30,601 nucleotides of DNA from a virus, in IMG/VR virus record IMGVR_UViG_3300047476_001516, positions 1 to 30,601 of that record; one strand, 5' to 3'. The position numbers were made by a program, and so were the translations under genes. The stretch's first letter is position 1. The number at the start of each line of letters is the position of its first letter. This document shows, piece after piece, positions 937 to 13,116 of the stretch. The notes beneath the pieces are model-generated. The model did not search any database. It was not told the DNA's origin and saw nothing but the letters and a program-made list of their open reading frames with translations.

Positions 937-2723
937 ATGGCAGCTACAACTGCAAGTGGCGTTGGCGCAGCGGATCTTCCGTTGCTCGACAAAAAATGGC
1001 TCACCTTCGCATTCGCCATCTATGCTGTGTTCTACGCATGGGTACGCTGGTATGAAGGCGTCTATGGCTGGTCCGCCGGTCTCGACTCATTCGCACCCGA
1101 GTTCGAAACCTACTGGATGAACTTCCTGTACACCGAAATCGTCCTGGAAGTCGTCACCGCCTCCATCCTGTGGGGCTACATCTGGAAGTCCCGTGACCGC
1201 AACCTGGCGGCTATCACCCCGCGTGAAGAGCTGCGTCGCAACATGACCCACCTGGTCTGGCTGTTTGCTTACGCCAACGCCATCTACTGGGGCGCTTCCT
1301 ACTTCACCGAGCAGGACGGCACCTGGCATCAGACGATCGTGCGTGACACCGACTTCACCCCGTCACACATCATCGAGTTCTACCTGAGCTACCCGATCTA
1401 CATCATCACCGGCTTCGGCGCCTTCCTGTACGCCAAGACCCGTCTGCCTTTCTTCGCAGAAGGTCTGTCCCTGCCCTACCTGGTGACTGTGGTTGGTCCG
1501 TTCATGATCCTGCCGAACGTAGGTCTGAACGAATGGGGTCAAAATGGCTCCTACACTCAGTAATGAGTGTAGAAAACTGCTCTAATTGCTGGGAACTCCT
1601 ACTGGGACAATCAGCAGCCAAGCTCAGAAATGAGAAGGTTCAACGACTAGATCGCAAGATCGTACATCCAAGTGGATGGAAATGGGCAGAATCCCGTGAT
1701 GGGATTAAGATATAGTCTGGTCTTACAGGTAACTGTAAGCAGTTTCAATAAGAAACGGTATAAGAGTAACGAACTTATATGAACAAAACACATACTTTTT
1801 GGTTTCAACGTAAGCCACTTTAAGCAGTAATGTTTATAGAAAACCACTTTAATTGCTGGAAACTCCTACTGGGACAATCAGCAGCCAAGCTCAGAAATGA
1901 GAAGGTTCAACGACTAGCCGAAAGGCGTACACTCAAGCGAGTGGAAATGGGTGGGATCCTACTGGGATCAAGATATAGTCTGAACTGTATGGTAACATAC
2001 AGCAGTCCTAAAAGGACGGATAAGAATTTAGCGAATCTTATTGAACACGATGTTATGGAAGAACTTTTTGTCGCTCAATTGGGGCGCTTATAATCGCGAG
2101 ATTATAATGAAAACTCTGTGAATTCGGTGAACATCTCAATGCTGAGACAATACCGAGCCAAGCCCTGATTATAGGGAAGGTGTAACGACTATTCCGAAAG
2201 GAAGTACCATCAAGTGATGGGAAGCGCAGAGCAACTGATTGAATCAGTTGAAGAGATAGTCTGATCTATGTGGTAACGCATAGCAGTTCCTTTTGGAACG
2301 AGTAAGTATTAACGAAACTTACTGAACATTGCGCCATTGCACTATGGCTTCGTTTTCTTCGGTTAATAACTAGCCGCTTAATATAGCGATGTATTATGAA
2401 AAACTCCTTTAATTGCTGGAAACTCCCACTGGGACAATCAGCAGCCAAGCCCGAAAGGGAAGGTTCAACGACTAGCCGCAAGGCGTAGGATCAAGTGATC
2501 CGAAATGGGGAGCAACCAGAAATGGTTGAAGATATAGTCTGATCTGTGTGGCAACATGCAGCGGTTCTTAAAAAGAACGGTATAAGTATAACGAACTTAT
2601 ATGAACACATTGTGGTTAGCACTGGCGATTGCTGGAGTTCTACTCCAAGTATTTGCTAGTTTCGGTAATTTAATCGGAAAGGACATTGTTGAAGCGGTAG
2701 ATAGTGGATTGATTGCGAAGTAA
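937..2723 (+). CDS. pmoC: Particulate methane monooxygenase subunit C, split by four group I introns
   Basis: Predicted join 937-1539, 1791-1803, 2053-2075, 2334-2363, 2613-2723, giving 780 coding bases and 259 residues, the normal PmoC length. PmoC is an integral membrane subunit of the copper enzyme that oxidises methane to methanol. Exon 1 covers residues 1-201 and ends NEWG. Exon 2 supplies HTFW and the first base of F, exon 3 finishes F and gives MEELFVA, exon 4 gives [10 protein letters not shown], and exon 5 gives WLALAIAG to the end (LIAK). All copper ligands by homology to Methylococcus PmoC are present: D127, H131, H144 (CuC) and N198, H202, H216 (CuD), at a constant offset of 29. 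Unspliced translation stops at 1561. The start has AGAGG at 924-928. Exon 1 uses GC-rich, CTG-type codons; exons 2-5 use AT-rich codons like the phage genes. No pmoA or pmoB is visible. Splicing is inferred, not shown. Confidence 0.93.
1540..1790 (+). ncRNA. Group I intron 1 of pmoC (251 nt, no ORF)
   Basis: Core signatures are present: R-type GGTTCAACGACTAG at 1637-1650 and S-type AAGATATAGTCT at 1707-1718. P1 pairs exon end GGGGT with GCTCC at 1547-1551, with the expected U.G pair at the splice site. P2 is a 9-bp hairpin (CTACACTCA/TGAGTGTAG, GTAA loop) at 1551-1572. A 3-bp P10 (CAT with ATG at 1545-1547) and the spacing from a conserved GAACA seen in introns 2-4 both place the 3' splice site after 1790. 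That makes the last intron base A, not the usual G. Nearly identical in core and P9 hairpin to the intron at 8680-8930. It interrupts between G201 and copper ligand H202. Confidence 0.9.
1804..2052 (+). ncRNA. Group I intron 2 of pmoC (249 nt, no ORF)
   Basis: R element around 1904-1917 and S element AAGATATAGTCT near 1970-1981. P1: exon 2 end TGGT pairs with GCCA, with U.G at the splice site. P10: exon 3 start TTATG pairs with CGTAA immediately 5' of the P1 strand, a 5-bp match that fixes the 3' site. The intron ends in G at 2052, ten bases from the start of the conserved GAACA. It splits the phenylalanine codon between exon 2 and exon 3. A block of about 65 bases covering the P/Q and R elements is almost identical to intron 1. 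Confidence 0.92.
2076..2333 (+). ncRNA. Group I intron 3 of pmoC (258 nt, no ORF, divergent)
   Basis: The most divergent copy: R-type GGTGTAACGACTA and S-type GAGATAGTCT (about 2253-2262) are recognisable. P1: CGCT at the exon 3 end with GGCG, U.G at the splice site; P10: CCA of exon 4 with TGG. An 8-bp hairpin (TTATAATC/GATTATAA, GCGA loop) at 2089-2108 matches the P2 position of intron 1. It ends in G at 2333, again ten bases from the GAACA start. It lies two codons before copper ligand H216. Confidence 0.9.
2364..2612 (+). ncRNA. Group I intron 4 of pmoC (249 nt, no ORF)
   Basis: P1 pairs CGGT at the exon 4 end with GCCG, with U.G at the splice site. P10 pairs exon 5 start TGGTTA with TAACTA just upstream of the P1 strand (six pairs, one wobble). 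The R element GGTTCAACGACTAG and S element AAGATATAGTCT are intact. It ends in G at 2612. The 3' end (TATAAG stem, GAACA) closely matches introns 1 and 2. Splicing joins FFG to WLALAIAG in frame. Confidence 0.92.
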
Positions 2724-2743: not shown

Positions 2744-2770
2744 AAAAGGGAGCTATGCTCCCTTTTCTTT
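2744..2770. terminator. Bidirectional terminator between pmoC and the GIY-YIG gene
   Basis: A 10-bp stem AAAAGGGAGC/GCTCCCTTTT with TAT loop, followed by a T-rich tail on the plus strand and TTTTC on the minus strand. It lies 20 bases after the pmoC stop. The stop codon of the convergent endonuclease gene is in its loop, so it probably ends both transcripts. Confidence 0.85.
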
Positions 2771-3514
2771 TGTCTTTTGTTTACAATTGTCTCCGTGATA
2801 TCTTGTCATGTTGCCTCCACTGCCCACGTGTCCACAATGTGGACAAACTTTTGTTTTCATATTTCGTTTTTTAAAAACCCTATCTTTTAACCAACCTGGT
2901 TGAACATTCTCGTCAAGAACATAATAATCTTGCTCTCCGTCATTCCACCATTTAAAATCGCCTCTATCCCTCGTGTTTGCGCTTTCCGACATTTTTGCAA
3001 TAGTCTCATTGGAATACACATTCGTTCGACCTTTATTCCAAGGAACTTGTCCAGTTTTTTTGTTTTTGTTCCAAGGAGTGGAACCCTTTTTGGATCGACT
3101 CATTGTTTCGCGATATTCGTTAGTTCGTGGTGGTTTCTTTTTTCCTTTCCCCATTCTTCCTACTTCGGCCAGTTTTATTTTTGTTTCTGGTGTGTGTTTG
3201 TATCCTATTGTTCCCTCGCCTCCCTCTGTCATGTTGTATCCATTGCTATCGGGAAAATAAATGCAACTATTGAATTCTCGGATAAAATATGGTTCCATCT
3301 CTTTCAGTGTATGGATAGCATCTGATGATTGGTATATTGCTTCCCATTCAAAAGAATCCCAACCGTATTTTCTTAGACTTCTGTGAAAAACGTGATTTCC
3401 TATCTTCATCGCGGTCTTGTGTTCTGCTTGACGTTTAGGCCAATTGGAATCGTATCCTATGTAACACTTTCCTGAAATTTTGTGAGTTGCCTTATATATA
3501 GTATAAATATTCAT
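2753..3514 (-). CDS. Free-standing GIY-YIG homing endonuclease with NUMOD-type and zinc-finger regions
   Basis: A 253-residue protein. The start at 3514 is chosen over an upstream ATG at 3562 because GGAGGA precedes it and the GIY-YIG domain begins at once (MNIYTIYKATHKISGK, then CYIGYD). The catalytic pattern is visible: Y of the first motif, YIG, an arginine in the following helix (WPKRQAEH) and a glutamate in EPYFIREF. A segment GYKHTPETKIKLAEV matches the NUMOD3 style of DNA-binding motif. The C-terminus has a CPHCGHVGSGGNM...H...NC zinc-finger-like motif common in phage endonucleases. Such enzymes cut intron- or gene-less alleles to spread themselves or neighbouring introns. It sits tail-to-tail with pmoC, which carries four ORF-less introns, so it may drive their homing in trans. 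It is preceded by a structured leader shared with the other two GIY-YIG genes. Confidence 0.85.
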   Translation of the reverse strand: MNIYTIYKATHKISGKCYIGYDSNWPKRQAEHKTAMKIGNHVFHRSLRKYGWDSFEWEAIYQSSDAIHTLKEMEPYFIREFNSCIYFPDSNGYNMTEGGEGTIGYKHTPETKIKLAEVGRMGKGKKKPPRTNEYRETMSRSKKGSTPWNKNKKTGQVPWNKGRTNVYSNETIAKMSESANTRDRGDFKWWNDGEQDYYVLDENVQPGWLKDRVFKKRNMKTKVCPHCGHVGSGGNMTRYHGDNCKQKTKEKGA

Positions 3515-3583
3515 TGCTGATAGTCCTCCATAGACTGTTAGGGTAGTTAGGTGCGCTAACACCGTGAACTACACTTATTTATC
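3515..3583 (-). ncRNA. Conserved structured leader, copy A (late promoter + covarying hairpin + RBS)
   Basis: Reading on the minus strand: GATAAATA (3583-3576), AGT, outer stem GTAGTT/AACTAC, bulge CAC, inner stem GGTG/CACC, loop TTAGCG, single T, then CCTAACA and GGAGGA before ATCAGCA-ATG. Both stems are perfect and differ in sequence from those of copies B (7653-7719) and C (9971-10040), while the bulge, loop, CTAA and RBS regions are kept. The loop TTAG could pair with the downstream CTAA. Confidence 0.8.
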
Positions 3584-7719: not shown

Positions 7720-8601
7720 ATGCTATTTAGTACCCTAAACTGGGAGCCAGTAAAGAAAGTTCCATTATTCATTCACGATGTGAATGATATTATATCTACT
7801 TGGAAGCAATACACTCATTGGAAGAATCTTAATGATTATTGTGTATATGTTTACTTGCGAGAGGAATCCGATAAACACGGTCCGAAGTACAGCATTCGTT
7901 ACGTCGGAGAAGGACAACCTAAAAGAATAATTAGCAAAAATCATAGAGTGAGAATTCCTATAAGCGGTGAATTTATCTTCGTGGTTGATGGATTGACAAA
8001 AAAGGAAGTCAGAGATATCGAGGAAAAAATAATTCAAGTTTTCGGAAGAATATCAAAAGGAACTGGTATCTTGGAAAACCTGAAACACAAATGCGGCGGA
8101 CAAGAAGATCCAGTGCCTCCGAGAAAAAAGGAATTGTGTCAATATTGCGGCAACGAATATGCTCACCTTCAATTTCATGAACGACATTGTGACAAAAATA
8201 TTGACAGAGAATATGGAACAAAAACATATCAATACACTAAATGTCAGTATTGTGGTGACGAATTTACTATAAATCAGGCACAACAACATGAAAGAAGTTG
8301 TAAACGCAATCCTGATCCTAAACCCTCGTCGCATAAAATGTTGTCATGTAAATTTTGTGACAGAGAAGTTTTAAGTTCCGCTATGCCCCAACACGAACGA
8401 ACTTGTGCCAAGAATCCAAATAGAGTGGCTGGACCAGGCACTGGTAATACGTTTTCAAAAATTCAATGTTCTATGTGTGATAGGATGGTAGCTTACAATA
8501 ACATAGCTATTCATGAGAGAAGTTGTAAAAATAATCCAAATAGAGTTCCGGGTGTCAGATATGGTAAAACGAGTAAAAAGATAAATACATTTGCCGAATA
8601 G
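7720..8601 (+). CDS. GIY-YIG-like nuclease with four C-terminal zinc fingers
   Basis: A 293-residue protein. Residues 38-70 (YCVYVYLREES..., YSIRYVGEGQPKRI) match a GIY-YIG fold with YVG for YIG and a following arginine. An acidic helix at 93-105 (KKEVRDIEEKIIQVFGR) supplies the candidate catalytic glutamate, and GTGILENL follows as in LEM-3-like members. Residues 140-157, 175-194, 210-229 and 250-269 are four similar zinc fingers of the form CxxC...HERxC, which should bind DNA. Likely role: sequence-specific homing or mobility nuclease. The ATG follows AGGAGG and the conserved leader copy B. It stands just before a gene with an ORF-less group I intron (8680-8930), so it may act on that site in trans. 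Confidence 0.75.
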   Translation: MLFSTLNWEPVKKVPLFIHDVNDIISTWKQYTHWKNLNDYCVYVYLREESDKHGPKYSIRYVGEGQPKRIISKNHRVRIPISGEFIFVVDGLTKKEVRDIEEKIIQVFGRISKGTGILENLKHKCGGQEDPVPPRKKELCQYCGNEYAHLQFHERHCDKNIDREYGTKTYQYTKCQYCGDEFTINQAQQHERSCKRNPDPKPSSHKMLSCKFCDREVLSSAMPQHERTCAKNPNRVAGPGTGNTFSKIQCSMCDRMVAYNNIAIHERSCKNNPNRVPGVRYGKTSKKINTFAE

Positions 8602-8673
8602 GTCGGTTTATGGGGTATTAATCCACCTCGTAGGCGAATAGAACCGCCATTATAAACAAAAGGAGATAAAATC

Positions 8674-9740
8674 ATGGGTCGGCTGGCCCCGCCAGATAGT
8701 AATATCTAGTGATAACTGCTCTAATTGCTGGGAACTCCTAATGGGACAATCAGCAGCCAAGCCTCGTGAGAGGAAGGTTCAACGACTAGCCGAAAGGCGT
8801 ACACTCAAGTGAGTGGAAATGGGTAGGATCCCTCCGGGATCAAGATATAGTCTGATCTTACAGGTAACTGTAAGCAGTTTTGATTAAATCAAAGCGGTGC
8901 GGAATTAACGTCTCTGCGCGAACAACGTTGCGTCCTCTAAAAGTACAGAAGTATTCACCAGGTTCCGGGGATAACGGAACATCAACCACAGCGGGCAACG
9001 GTGTTCCGGTTCCCGTAGATATCGCTTATCCACCGTTTATTGCGATGGATCCAGGCACCGCTGTCACACCAGCTGGTAGCCTTATTACACCACCTTGGAC
9101 TGGTGTAGTCGGTGGTGTGCCAAACCCAGCAACGTCTGCTGCTTACCCTATCGTGGCCATTACTGTAAATGTAGCTCTACCTAACGGAACTGGCGCTGGT
9201 GTTGCACCGGGTGCAATTATTCGTCAGAAAGGTTCGCGCAAATATATGGTAGCTGATCTAACGCCTGTTGCAGCCACGGCCATGATTCCTGGTGCAGCTT
9301 ATATGATTGCCACTACAGGCAATACACCATGGCAATCATTTGGTGCAAGCGTTAATTATAATATTTGGGATGTATTCACTTGTACTGCCGCTGGTACTGG
9401 AACGGGTACTGCATATCTTGTGGGTTCTTGCGTTCTTGACGATACAGCTAATCCGACTGTGGGCAACATGAGTATCGGTTTCCTTGATAGCACTTCCACG
9501 GTTCAGTATATCAGCAAATTAACAAATAAATTTCTATTTGACTTTGCTGGTGGCGAGGTCGGCGGTAATGCTAATGCCGGTGATGTCTGGTCATATGAAC
9601 AGGTACAAAACAACGAACGTTGGATTGCGAACTTTTTCACTGATGATGGATACATGGTCAAGTCTGGCACAAGTGGTGGTCCGAATACACCCGGCCAACA
9701 AAACCAAGTTCCGATGGGAGATGTGGATTCTTATACCTAA
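8674..9740 (+). CDS. Phage structural protein, start codon separated by a group I intron
   Basis: Predicted join 8674-8679, 8931-9740: exon 1 is only ATG GGT, exon 2 continues with CGT CCT, giving MGRPLKVQ and a 271-residue protein. Exon 1 carries the ribosome-binding site (AGGAG at 8661-8665); exon 2 has none, so the gene needs splicing to be translated. Unspliced translation from 8674 stops after 11 codons. The mature sequence is glycine, alanine, threonine and proline rich with repeated beta-type strands, and an MGRPL start is typical of T4-like phage structural proteins. No enzyme motif. It is probably a head-decoration or fibre-associated virion protein. A splice site three bases earlier (adding L) is also in frame. 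Confidence 0.75.
8680..8930 (+). ncRNA. Group I intron 5, after codon 2 of the structural gene (251 nt, no ORF)
   Basis: It carries the same P/Q block (CTAATTGCTGGGAACTCCTA), R element GGTTCAACGACTAG and S element AAGATATAGTCT as the pmoC introns. P1 pairs exon end GGGT with GCCC, with U.G at the splice site; P2 is AGATA-GTAA-TATCT. The P9 hairpin CTTACAGGTAACTGTAAG is identical to that of pmoC intron 1, its closest relative. The 3' end has a P9.2 stem and GAACA, then G at 8930 (or 8927). The same length as pmoC intron 1. Confidence 0.88.
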
Positions 9741-10040: not shown

Positions 10041-10163
10041 ATGATATTTATTATCTCGGTCAATCGACCCGAAAATTCTCCTATTGGCGTTGCCATAATC
10101 AACAAAGGAGAACTTCAATGGCAACTAAAAAATCAAAAACACCTGTCTACTATACCTATCTGA
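10041..10163 (+). CDS. Short upstream ORF (40 aa) overlapping the endonuclease start
   Basis: The ATG at 10041 has exactly the position relative to leader copy C that the endonuclease ATGs have relative to copies A and B, with the same GAGGA site, so it is probably translated. The product (MIFIISVNRPENSPIGVAII...) has no domain. It overlaps the start of the gene at 10118 in another frame, which suggests a leader peptide, translational coupling, or a relic of a gene replaced by the endonuclease. Confidence 0.45.
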   Translation: MIFIISVNRPENSPIGVAIINKGELQWQLKNQKHLSTIPI

Positions 10164-11224
10164 TAGGGTGGTCTTGGCTTAATACTTGGTATTATGGAAG
10201 CAAATATTCTAAAAATGCCGACCCAGAATTATTCTGGAAGAAATACTTCACATCAAGTAAACACGTAAAGCGATTTCGTGAACAACACGGCGAACCTGAT
10301 GTAATTCAAGTCAGACATACCTTCAACTGTCCTATTAAAACACTTGCTTGGGAAGGCAAAGTTCACAAACGCATGGGTTGTCGGTTGAGTTCACGGTGGC
10401 TAAATGCGGCCGATGCTAATGTCAAGTGGAACACCGCCGGTATGTTCAACGTAAAAGATAATTTAAATAATATTTTTCAAGTATCAGTGAATGATTTTAG
10501 ATATCTATCTGGTGAACTCAGGGGCATATTAAGTGATAGAGTAACTGTGCAGGATAAGTCTGGTAAAACGATGTCAGTGTCGGTGTCTGACGAAAAATAT
10601 ATATCAGGAGAGTGTATCAGTATCAATAAGGGAAAAATTCCGGTAAAAGATAAGGATGGGAAATCATCACAAGTGACGAGAGATGATTTTAGGTGGGTAT
10701 CTGGAGAACTCGTTCACGTCACTAAAGGTACTGTAAACGTGTTGGATAAAGATGGCAATAATATTAGAATAAAAAAAGACGATCCACGATTGTTGTCGGG
10801 TGAATTGACAGGGATCGTCAAAGGAACTATTGTAGTTATGGACAAAGATGGCAATAAATTCAGAGTATCTAAGGATGATTCTAGGTGGATATCCGGCGAG
10901 TTAAAAGCATTGTCTTCTAATACAGTGATGATCAGAGACAAAGATGGAAGTGCGATCAGGGTGTCAAAGGACGATCCACGGTGGGTATCGGGCGAGATGA
11001 CGGCAATCGCCAAAGGCAAGGTGAATGTTATCGACAGAGATGGAAATAAGTTTATGGTATCAAAGGATGATCCTCGATGGTTATCGGGTGAATTGATAGC
11101 ACTATCTACAAATTCCGTTGTGGTAAAGGATAAGTTCGGGAATAAATTTAGAGTATCAAAAGATGATCCTCGATGGTTATCGGGTGAAGTTGTAGGAGTA
11201 AATAAGAAAAATTGGCCCTGTTGA
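10118..11224 (+). CDS. GIY-YIG-like endonuclease with eight C-terminal DPRWLSGEL repeats
   Basis: A 368-residue protein. Residues 10-105 (YYTYLIGWSWLNTWYYGSKY, YFTSSKHVKRFREQHGEPD, WEGKVHKRM, RWLN) match a GIY-YIG-type domain common in T4-like phage mobile endonucleases, with YLIG/YYG for the two motifs and E80 as the candidate metal-binding residue. Residues about 111-362 are eight units of about 30 residues with consensus VxDKDGNxFRVSKDDPRWLSGEL, which are probable DNA-binding modules like the NUMOD-type repeats of homing enzymes. Start chosen for AAAGGAG nine bases upstream. It ends at a terminator that is a near copy of the one before it at 9760, so the cassette is flanked by direct repeats. 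Confidence 0.75.
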   Translation: MATKKSKTPVYYTYLIGWSWLNTWYYGSKYSKNADPELFWKKYFTSSKHVKRFREQHGEPDVIQVRHTFNCPIKTLAWEGKVHKRMGCRLSSRWLNAADANVKWNTAGMFNVKDNLNNIFQVSVNDFRYLSGELRGILSDRVTVQDKSGKTMSVSVSDEKYISGECISINKGKIPVKDKDGKSSQVTRDDFRWVSGELVHVTKGTVNVLDKDGNNIRIKKDDPRLLSGELTGIVKGTIVVMDKDGNKFRVSKDDSRWISGELKALSSNTVMIRDKDGSAIRVSKDDPRWVSGEMTAIAKGKVNVIDRDGNKFMVSKDDPRWLSGELIALSTNSVVVKDKFGNKFRVSKDDPRWLSGEVVGVNKKNWPC

Positions 11225-11859: not shown

Positions 11860-13116
11860 ATGATTTTTAAATCTTTCAAATATCGCCTATATCCAAATGT
11901 GGCCCAACAAGAGCAGATGATAAAGACATTTGGGTGTAAACGACTAATATTCAATCATCTACTTGATACACAAATCAAGAGATATGAATCGGGTGAAGGA
12001 AATCTTACTTACTTCGGATGTAATAATCTGATTGTGGAATGGAAGAAGGAAGAAGAAAAAGCATTTTTGACAGAAGTAGATAGTCAAGCACTTCAGCAAG
12101 CAGCAAAAGACTTGCACGATGCCTATACTAACTTCTTCAAATCACTGAGCGGCAAGAGGAAAGGGACTAAAATTAATAGCCCTAAATTCAAATCCAAGTA
12201 TGCACGTCAGAGCTATCGTACCCCAAATAATAATGGAACGATTAAATTCAAAGATGATTCTTTGAGATTGCCAACTTTGGGTTATGTAAGAGCAGTTATT
12301 GACAGGAATATAGAGGGAAAAATTAAATCGGCTACTATCTCCATGGATAGAGATGGCAAATTTTATGTATCTGTTTTGGTTGAAACGGAACAGAAACTAT
12401 TATCAATGACTGGCAAGGAAGTCGGCATTGATTTAGGGATTAAGGATTTATTTGTTACATCAGATGGCAATAGATTCGATAATCCAAAAGACTTAATTCG
12501 TATGACAAAAACCACGCAACGAATTAAGTTGTTGCAGAAAAAGTTGGCAAGAACAAGAAAAGGCAGTAAGAGCAGAGAAAAGCTACGAATTCAATTGGCA
12601 TCTGCATATAAGAGGTTAACCAATCAAAGAAACAACTATTATCATGAAATCAGTCATTGGTTGGTTAATTCGTATGATGCAATTTATGCGGAAGATTTGA
12701 ATGTGAAAGGAATGATGGCTAATAGAAAACTATCAAGAGCTATTCATGAATCTTCATGGGCCACTTTGGTGGGAATGATTCAATATAAATGCGAGTGGTA
12801 TGGAAAAACATTTTATCAAATCAATCGCTATTATCCATCTTCAAAGACTTGTTCTTGTTGCAGCAATAAAATAGAAAAATTGTCATTATCCGAACGTGAA
12901 TGGAAGTGCCCATCTTGTGGCACATTACACGATAGAGACTATAATGCAGCGATAAATATCCTCAAAGAAGGACAAAAAGACTTATATAGCACTTCGTTGG
13001 TCCGACGCGAAGCGGGCGAAATAATCGTCCCGTCAGCTCTAGTGAAATTGAGTAGTAAAACCGAGAGGTCTGATTCGTTGAAATCAGTTGCTCAAGGGAC
13101 AGAGTTAGTTTATTAA
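11860..13116 (+). CDS. tnpB: IS605-family TnpB, RNA-guided nuclease, without TnpA
   Basis: A 418-residue protein with the whole TnpB architecture: N-terminal FKSFKYRLYPN region, central wedge/REC part, RuvC motifs with D191 (GIDLG), E278 (YAEDLNV) and D360 (HDRDYNAAINI), and a zinc ribbon CSCC...CPSC (C331, C334, C350, C353). All catalytic residues are intact. TnpB proteins are known RNA-guided DNA nucleases that use an omega RNA from their own 3' end and favour transposon retention. No tnpA is present, the gene starts 10 bases after the previous stop and the next gene starts 37 bases after its own, so there is little room for transposon ends. It may act as a stand-alone homing-type gene. The start lacks a clear Shine-Dalgarno. 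Confidence 0.92.
   Translation: MIFKSFKYRLYPNVAQQEQMIKTFGCKRLIFNHLLDTQIKRYESGEGNLTYFGCNNLIVEWKKEEEKAFLTEVDSQALQQAAKDLHDAYTNFFKSLSGKRKGTKINSPKFKSKYARQSYRTPNNNGTIKFKDDSLRLPTLGYVRAVIDRNIEGKIKSATISMDRDGKFYVSVLVETEQKLLSMTGKEVGIDLGIKDLFVTSDGNRFDNPKDLIRMTKTTQRIKLLQKKLARTRKGSKSREKLRIQLASAYKRLTNQRNNYYHEISHWLVNSYDAIYAEDLNVKGMMANRKLSRAIHESSWATLVGMIQYKCEWYGKTFYQINRYYPSSKTCSCCSNKIEKLSLSEREWKCPSCGTLHDRDYNAAINILKEGQKDLYSTSLVRREAGEIIVPSALVKLSSKTERSDSLKSVAQGTELVY

Follow-up and report, generated by a model that had tools for sequence, protein, structure and literature searches.

The closest described relatives of the introns analysed here are those in the td and nrdB genes of phage T4, with which they share the same core, the guide-sequence architecture, and significant sequence similarity. 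The 3′ end of the T4 td intron, GAACATAATG, supplies the same ten bases that close several of the analysed introns. The T4 introns have I-TevI or I-TevIII within them, whereas the introns in phage pmoC lack an ORF and occur four to a gene. Twort orf142 contains three group I introns and a 23-nt exon, and undergoes exon skipping (PMC10136302). Like it, the pmoC locus has group IA introns in tandem within a single phage gene, with micro-exons between them, but it differs in the number of introns (four), the length of the smallest exon (13 nt), the metabolic nature of the gene, and in that its splicing is predicted. Bastillevirinae genes with two or three introns provide a near precedent. Cyanophage S-PM2 likewise has an intron in a host-derived metabolic gene, psbA, beside a free-standing endonuclease, F-CphI, in a case of collaborative homing (PMC6083498). 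In contrast to F-CphI, the endonucleases beside pmoC are GIY-YIG/NUMOD3-like and vary between phages, and their cutting is predicted.

Large freshwater phages with a pmoC reported as 'fragmented' have been described (PMC7674155), and a text search of that paper found no mention of introns. According to the passages on conserved sites in PMC2814812, group I introns prefer conserved positions of their host proteins, as in a cox1 intron between Gly275 and His276; those passages do not mention pmoC. Among the papers searched, none names both methane monooxygenase and group I introns.

Exons and introns of viral pmoC genes

The sequence analysed is an IMG/VR virus record of 30,601 bases, referred to here as the window. 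It contains five group I introns detected with Rfam, four in pmoC and one elsewhere (Table 1). The four pmoC introns are real: they score 94 to 105 bits with the Rfam covariance models, against a cut-off of 50, and match the conserved core. All four are td/nrdB-like group IA introns of 249 to 258 nt without an ORF. They interrupt the gene four times within 22 codons, leaving internal exons of 13, 23, and 30 nt, with one CuD histidine each in exons 2 and 4. With the junctions set by protein homology and intron ends, we infer that the five exons are spliced into a complete PmoC of 259 amino acids.

Table 1. Positions of pmoC exons, introns, and neighbouring features in the window, and intron sites in other viral pmoC loci (L numbers)
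Feature	Position	Strand	Description
pmoC exon 1	937..1539	+	codons 1-201; N198 codon 1528-1530; host-like codon usage, GC3 0.76
Intron 1	1540..1790	+	group IA, 251 nt, ORF-less; between G201 and H202; terminal A; guide GCTCC 1547-1551; P10 strand ATG 1544-1546
pmoC exon 2	1791..1803	+	13 nt; first codon is H202 (CuD ligand)
Intron 2	1804..2052	+	group IA, 249 nt; F206 codon split T/TT; orthologue in L012
pmoC exon 3	2053..2075	+	23 nt
Intron 3	2076..2333	+	group IA, 258 nt (second subfamily); between A213 and P214; L031 also has an intron at this site
pmoC exon 4	2334..2363	+	30 nt; H216 (CuD ligand) codon 2340-2342
Intron 4	2364..2612	+	group IA, 249 nt; between G223 and W224; orthologue in L012
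pmoC exon 5	2613..2723	+	codons 224-259 and stop; phage-like codon usage
Free-standing homing endonuclease	2753..3562	-	GIY-YIG, NUMOD3, and C-terminal zinc-finger-like motif; convergent, 29 nt past pmoC stop
Fifth related group I intron	8680..8930 (Rfam match 8670-8874)	+	in another gene, after second codon (M-G/R-P-L-K-V...); groups with pmoC intron 1
L012			introns at window sites 2 and 4
L031			intron at window site 3
L017 and L023			intron in codon 204
L025			intron in codon 219
L018			intron at codon 44/45

The consensus fold of 12 introns has 60 pairs, 46 of which show pair-keeping changes on both sides. In each of the 12, the 5′ exon ends in U and the P1 guide pairing is present. The insertion points track the local sequence, with the upstream exon ending in U and mostly in GGT. 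The P10 strand forms on average 4.1 contiguous pairs with its own downstream exon and 1.4 with swapped ones (permutation p=5e-5, eight sites).

Three scans, with the best 80 loci taken from each, gave 73 distinct viral pmoC genes. Six of these besides the window are interrupted, and the interrupted genes together define seven distinct sites, six within codons 201 to 224 and the seventh at codon 44. All seven interrupted viral genes give an intact conserved PmoC motif once spliced in silico. No interruption was found in 80 bacterial pmoC loci or among the matches listed for Methylococcales pmoC (268 of 301 genomes matched), a listing that could miss rare cases, and the spliced PmoC had no match in a phage collection. 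A scan with Rfam, from which L025 was left out, gave no gathering-level intron match in L017, L031, or L032, nor in the T4 nrdB region, and the introns of L017, L031, and L032 are therefore identified by blastn and alignment. These contigs hold further features of note: L012 contains a second, C-terminal pmoC fragment (10404-10517) downstream of its intron-bearing pmoC; L031 contains a match to a permuted/alpha tmRNA (1836-2207); and L312, the large-phage record of L018, contains a tRNA-Leu(UAA) gene (256-542) split by an intron of 202 nt that matches group I.

Adjacent endonucleases and probable intron homing

A homing endonuclease gene adjoins pmoC in six of the seven intron-bearing genes, window included, as against about 6 of 57 intronless ones (PHROG 314 matches; Fisher p about 1e-4), a p value that is optimistic because the genomes compared are related, and a count for which intronless neighbours were scanned mainly downstream, the upstream tally containing no endonuclease family. 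In L018, where the intron is near the 5′ end of the gene, the endonuclease is on the 5′ side. The endonuclease calls vary in strength; for the one in L018 the basis is alignment together with matches to NUMOD3 (E 0.0015) and, weakly, to a PHROG family (E 0.0023). L031 has an intron and no adjacent endonuclease. The most telling comparison is between L017, which has the intron, and L021, which lacks it. In blastn alignments, identity between these loci is 99.1% as far as the insertion site and 88% in the 3′ exon; there follows an endonuclease gene that L017 has and L021 lacks, and beyond it identity is 99.3%. Judged from the alignment, this tract is the footprint expected of homing with co-conversion. 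The pmoC genes of L023 and L025 (8615-9913) are also closely related; their intron sites differ, and a shared downstream position holds a different endonuclease in each. Elsewhere in the window, two more ORFs resemble endonuclease genes on inspection by eye: the one at 10118-11224 has a match to a PHROG HNH family, and the one at 7720-8601 only to families of unknown function.

We consider it likely that the window's pmoC holds four separately acquired td/nrdB-like introns, brought into a conserved stretch and kept there by homing through the adjacent endonuclease, and that CuD itself was not the target. What holds each intron to its junction would be pairing on both sides, of a guide sequence with the exon before it (P1) and of further bases with the exon after it (P10). 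The free-standing endonuclease beside pmoC would cut intronless pmoC in the conserved 3′ stretch, and repair would copy the intron as one unit with the exon that follows it and the endonuclease gene. The introns would have arrived and persisted in these codons because of this cutting and co-copying, while conservation of the stretch, imposed in part by CuD, would keep the target available and make imprecise loss costly. Some points weigh against homing: both splicing and endonuclease cutting are deduced from sequence, the terminal A of intron 1 should impair exon ligation, the L031 intron has no neighbouring endonuclease while some intronless pmoC genes have one, and the mosaic composition of the gene, described below, could stem from host-to-phage recombination halted by the introns.

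The relationships among the introns bear on how they moved. In the intron tree, which has modest support, orthologous introns cluster across phages at sites 2 and 4, where those of the window group with their L012 counterparts. The window's four introns are only 57 to 72% identical to one another and are therefore not fresh duplicates. Less probably, but with some claim to attention, the introns could have moved about the gene through reverse splicing, at short sequences that resemble one another, and not by endonuclease homing. Outside its own site, intron 4 has its closest relative in the codon-44 intron of L018, with which the site-4 introns share a GGT/TGG junction and a GCCG guide, and intron 1 groups with the fifth intron of the same contig, again with modest support. 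Reverse splicing would not, however, carry the 3′ exon and the endonuclease gene seen in the L017/L021 footprint. Both reverse splicing and homing may operate.

Intron sites and the copper ligands

The original prediction placed all four introns in the codons of the CuD copper site, and the residue mapping behind it was borne out. The spliced PmoC aligns over its full length with Methylococcus PmoC (E 2e-151 to the PmoC chain of 7ev9/7s4h), and the offset of 29, which is constant through the ligand region as had been proposed, makes N198, H202, and H216 equivalent to N227, H231, and H245, residues described as copper-binding in 7S4H (PMC9445010). The CuC ligands D127, H131, and H144 (D156, H160, and H173 in Methylococcus) are kept, as predicted, and are invariant across 141 aligned sequences. 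Intron 1 does immediately precede the codon of H202, and intron 3 ends two codons before that of H216. The headline itself was overstated, since no ligand codon is split; the intron 2 site, in F206, is four codons after H202, that of intron 4 is seven codons past H216, and the range given for the introns, 1531-2363, misses intron 4 altogether.

The prediction also held that introns settle in the most conserved, essential codons. They do occupy the most conserved stretch of the gene, where the 24-residue segments of highest conservation start at residues 187 to 194, but a specific link to copper ligands was not supported. The seven distinct viral sites are nearer CuD than uniform random positions (p=0.005) and nearer than loosely conserved positions (p=0.008), but not significantly nearer than positions conserved like the median site (p=0.15). 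A map of intron sites in other pmoC genes, proposed as a check, put most viral sites near CuD and one at codon 44, and showed none in the bacterial genes inspected.

We think it improbable that the introns are there because of CuD, with selection holding them at ligand codons where imprecise loss would destroy the enzyme. The abutment of intron 1 on H202, the nearness of intron 3 to H216, the concentration of six of the seven viral sites in codons 201 to 224 with its significance under the uniform null, and the preference of group I introns for conserved positions in general, as given in the relevant passages of PMC2814812, all speak for a role of the site. Against it, the association is not significant among equally conserved positions, and the CuC segment is about equally conserved (entropy 0.13, compared with 0.20 for the intron cluster) yet intron-free. 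Furthermore, one viral site, at codon 44, is far from any ligand, and the sites at 219 and 223.5 (intron 4 here) are only moderately conserved. The clustering of sites is thus real, but a copper-specific reading of it is unneeded, and closeness to CuD is, on these comparisons, best read as a by-product of conservation. Homing would account for the placement of the introns better than the copper site does.

Coding integrity and mosaic composition of pmoC

Between codons 202 and 240, the window and L012 differ by 18 synonymous and no non-synonymous codon changes, a pattern with a chance of about 1e-12 under a simple single-change model. The comparison indicates that the spliced product of the window, micro-exons included, is under strong purifying selection. 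A terminal A in a group I intron is expected to impair exon ligation, and intron 1 has an A as its last base, at 1790, where the other 11 of the 12 introns, including introns 2 to 5, have G. The junction at this A is backed by the intron alignment and by P10. Another in-frame 3′ site, which has a G and lies 9 nt upstream, lacks P10 pairing and was rejected for that reason, and a pattern search of viral contigs for siblings of the junction with G or A found none. The A may reflect an error or a variant, or mark a site at which splicing is slow.

It is doubtful that pmoC is decaying, with loss of the terminal G of intron 1 leaving a pseudogene or a source of truncated or exon-skipped products. 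Such decay would fit the terminal A in one of 12 introns, and skipping of exon 4, of exons 2 and 3, or of exons 2 to 4 would stay in frame. The guide of intron 4 pairs with the splice site of intron 2 as well as its own, and exon skipping in Twort orf142 is a precedent (PMC10136302). However, the absence of non-synonymous change relative to L012 argues against decay, P10 favours the 3′ site at the A, intron 1 has a strong predicted fold (z -4.0), and a lone consensus base may reflect an assembly error or a variant.

The composition of the gene changes at its first intron, where GC3 falls from 0.76 to 0.36 and host-like codons give way to phage-like ones. Exon 1 of the window matches the codons of Methylumidiphilus pmoC (L086) at 131 of 171 shared residues, and the sequence after the first intron at 12 of 37 (p=7e-7 for the drop); bacterial pairs compared in the same way showed no such drop. 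The best breakpoint is at codon 199 in the window, where the first intron follows codon 201 (permutation 0/2000), and at codon 210 in L012, where the first intron is in codon 206 (1/2000), with a suggestive breakpoint at codon 47 in L018 (144/2000). Either homing replaced the 3′ part of the gene, or host recombination replaced the 5′ part and came to a stop at the intron. An assembly chimera of a bacterial exon 1 with phage sequence would also produce the fall in GC3 at the first intron, but is very improbable and was rejected on the evidence of L012, an independent contig that shares two intron sites, the codon switch, and a backbone gene with the window; moreover, intron 1 pairs with exon 1.

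By extrapolation, introns may explain the 'fragmented' phage pmoC genes (PMC7674155), which matters for the question of whether these phages produce PmoC in full. With the window, a phage gene crowded with introns and holding an exon of 13 nt joins those described, and L017 and L021 form a natural pair, with and without the intron, in which the footprint of homing is clear. Homing may also shape mosaic host/phage metabolic genes. As the endonuclease target would be in a stretch that is near-identical in host pmoC, one can speculate, with little confidence, that the phage cuts the host's chromosomal pmoC and the pmoC of rival phages during infection, while its own intron-bearing copy is shielded. 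Were this true, phage pmoC would stand in for the host gene, and the chimeric host/phage genes would be explained by repeated rounds of cutting and repair.

Two further regions of the window are of note. Upstream of pmoC, at 1-624, there are a minus-strand fragment similar to a Tat-type FAD flavoprotein and an ORF with CxxCH that has no Pfam match; by eye, the two are possibly flavocytochrome c genes. At 11860-13116 there is a TnpB-like protein with OrfB_IS605 and a Cas12f1-like TNB domain.
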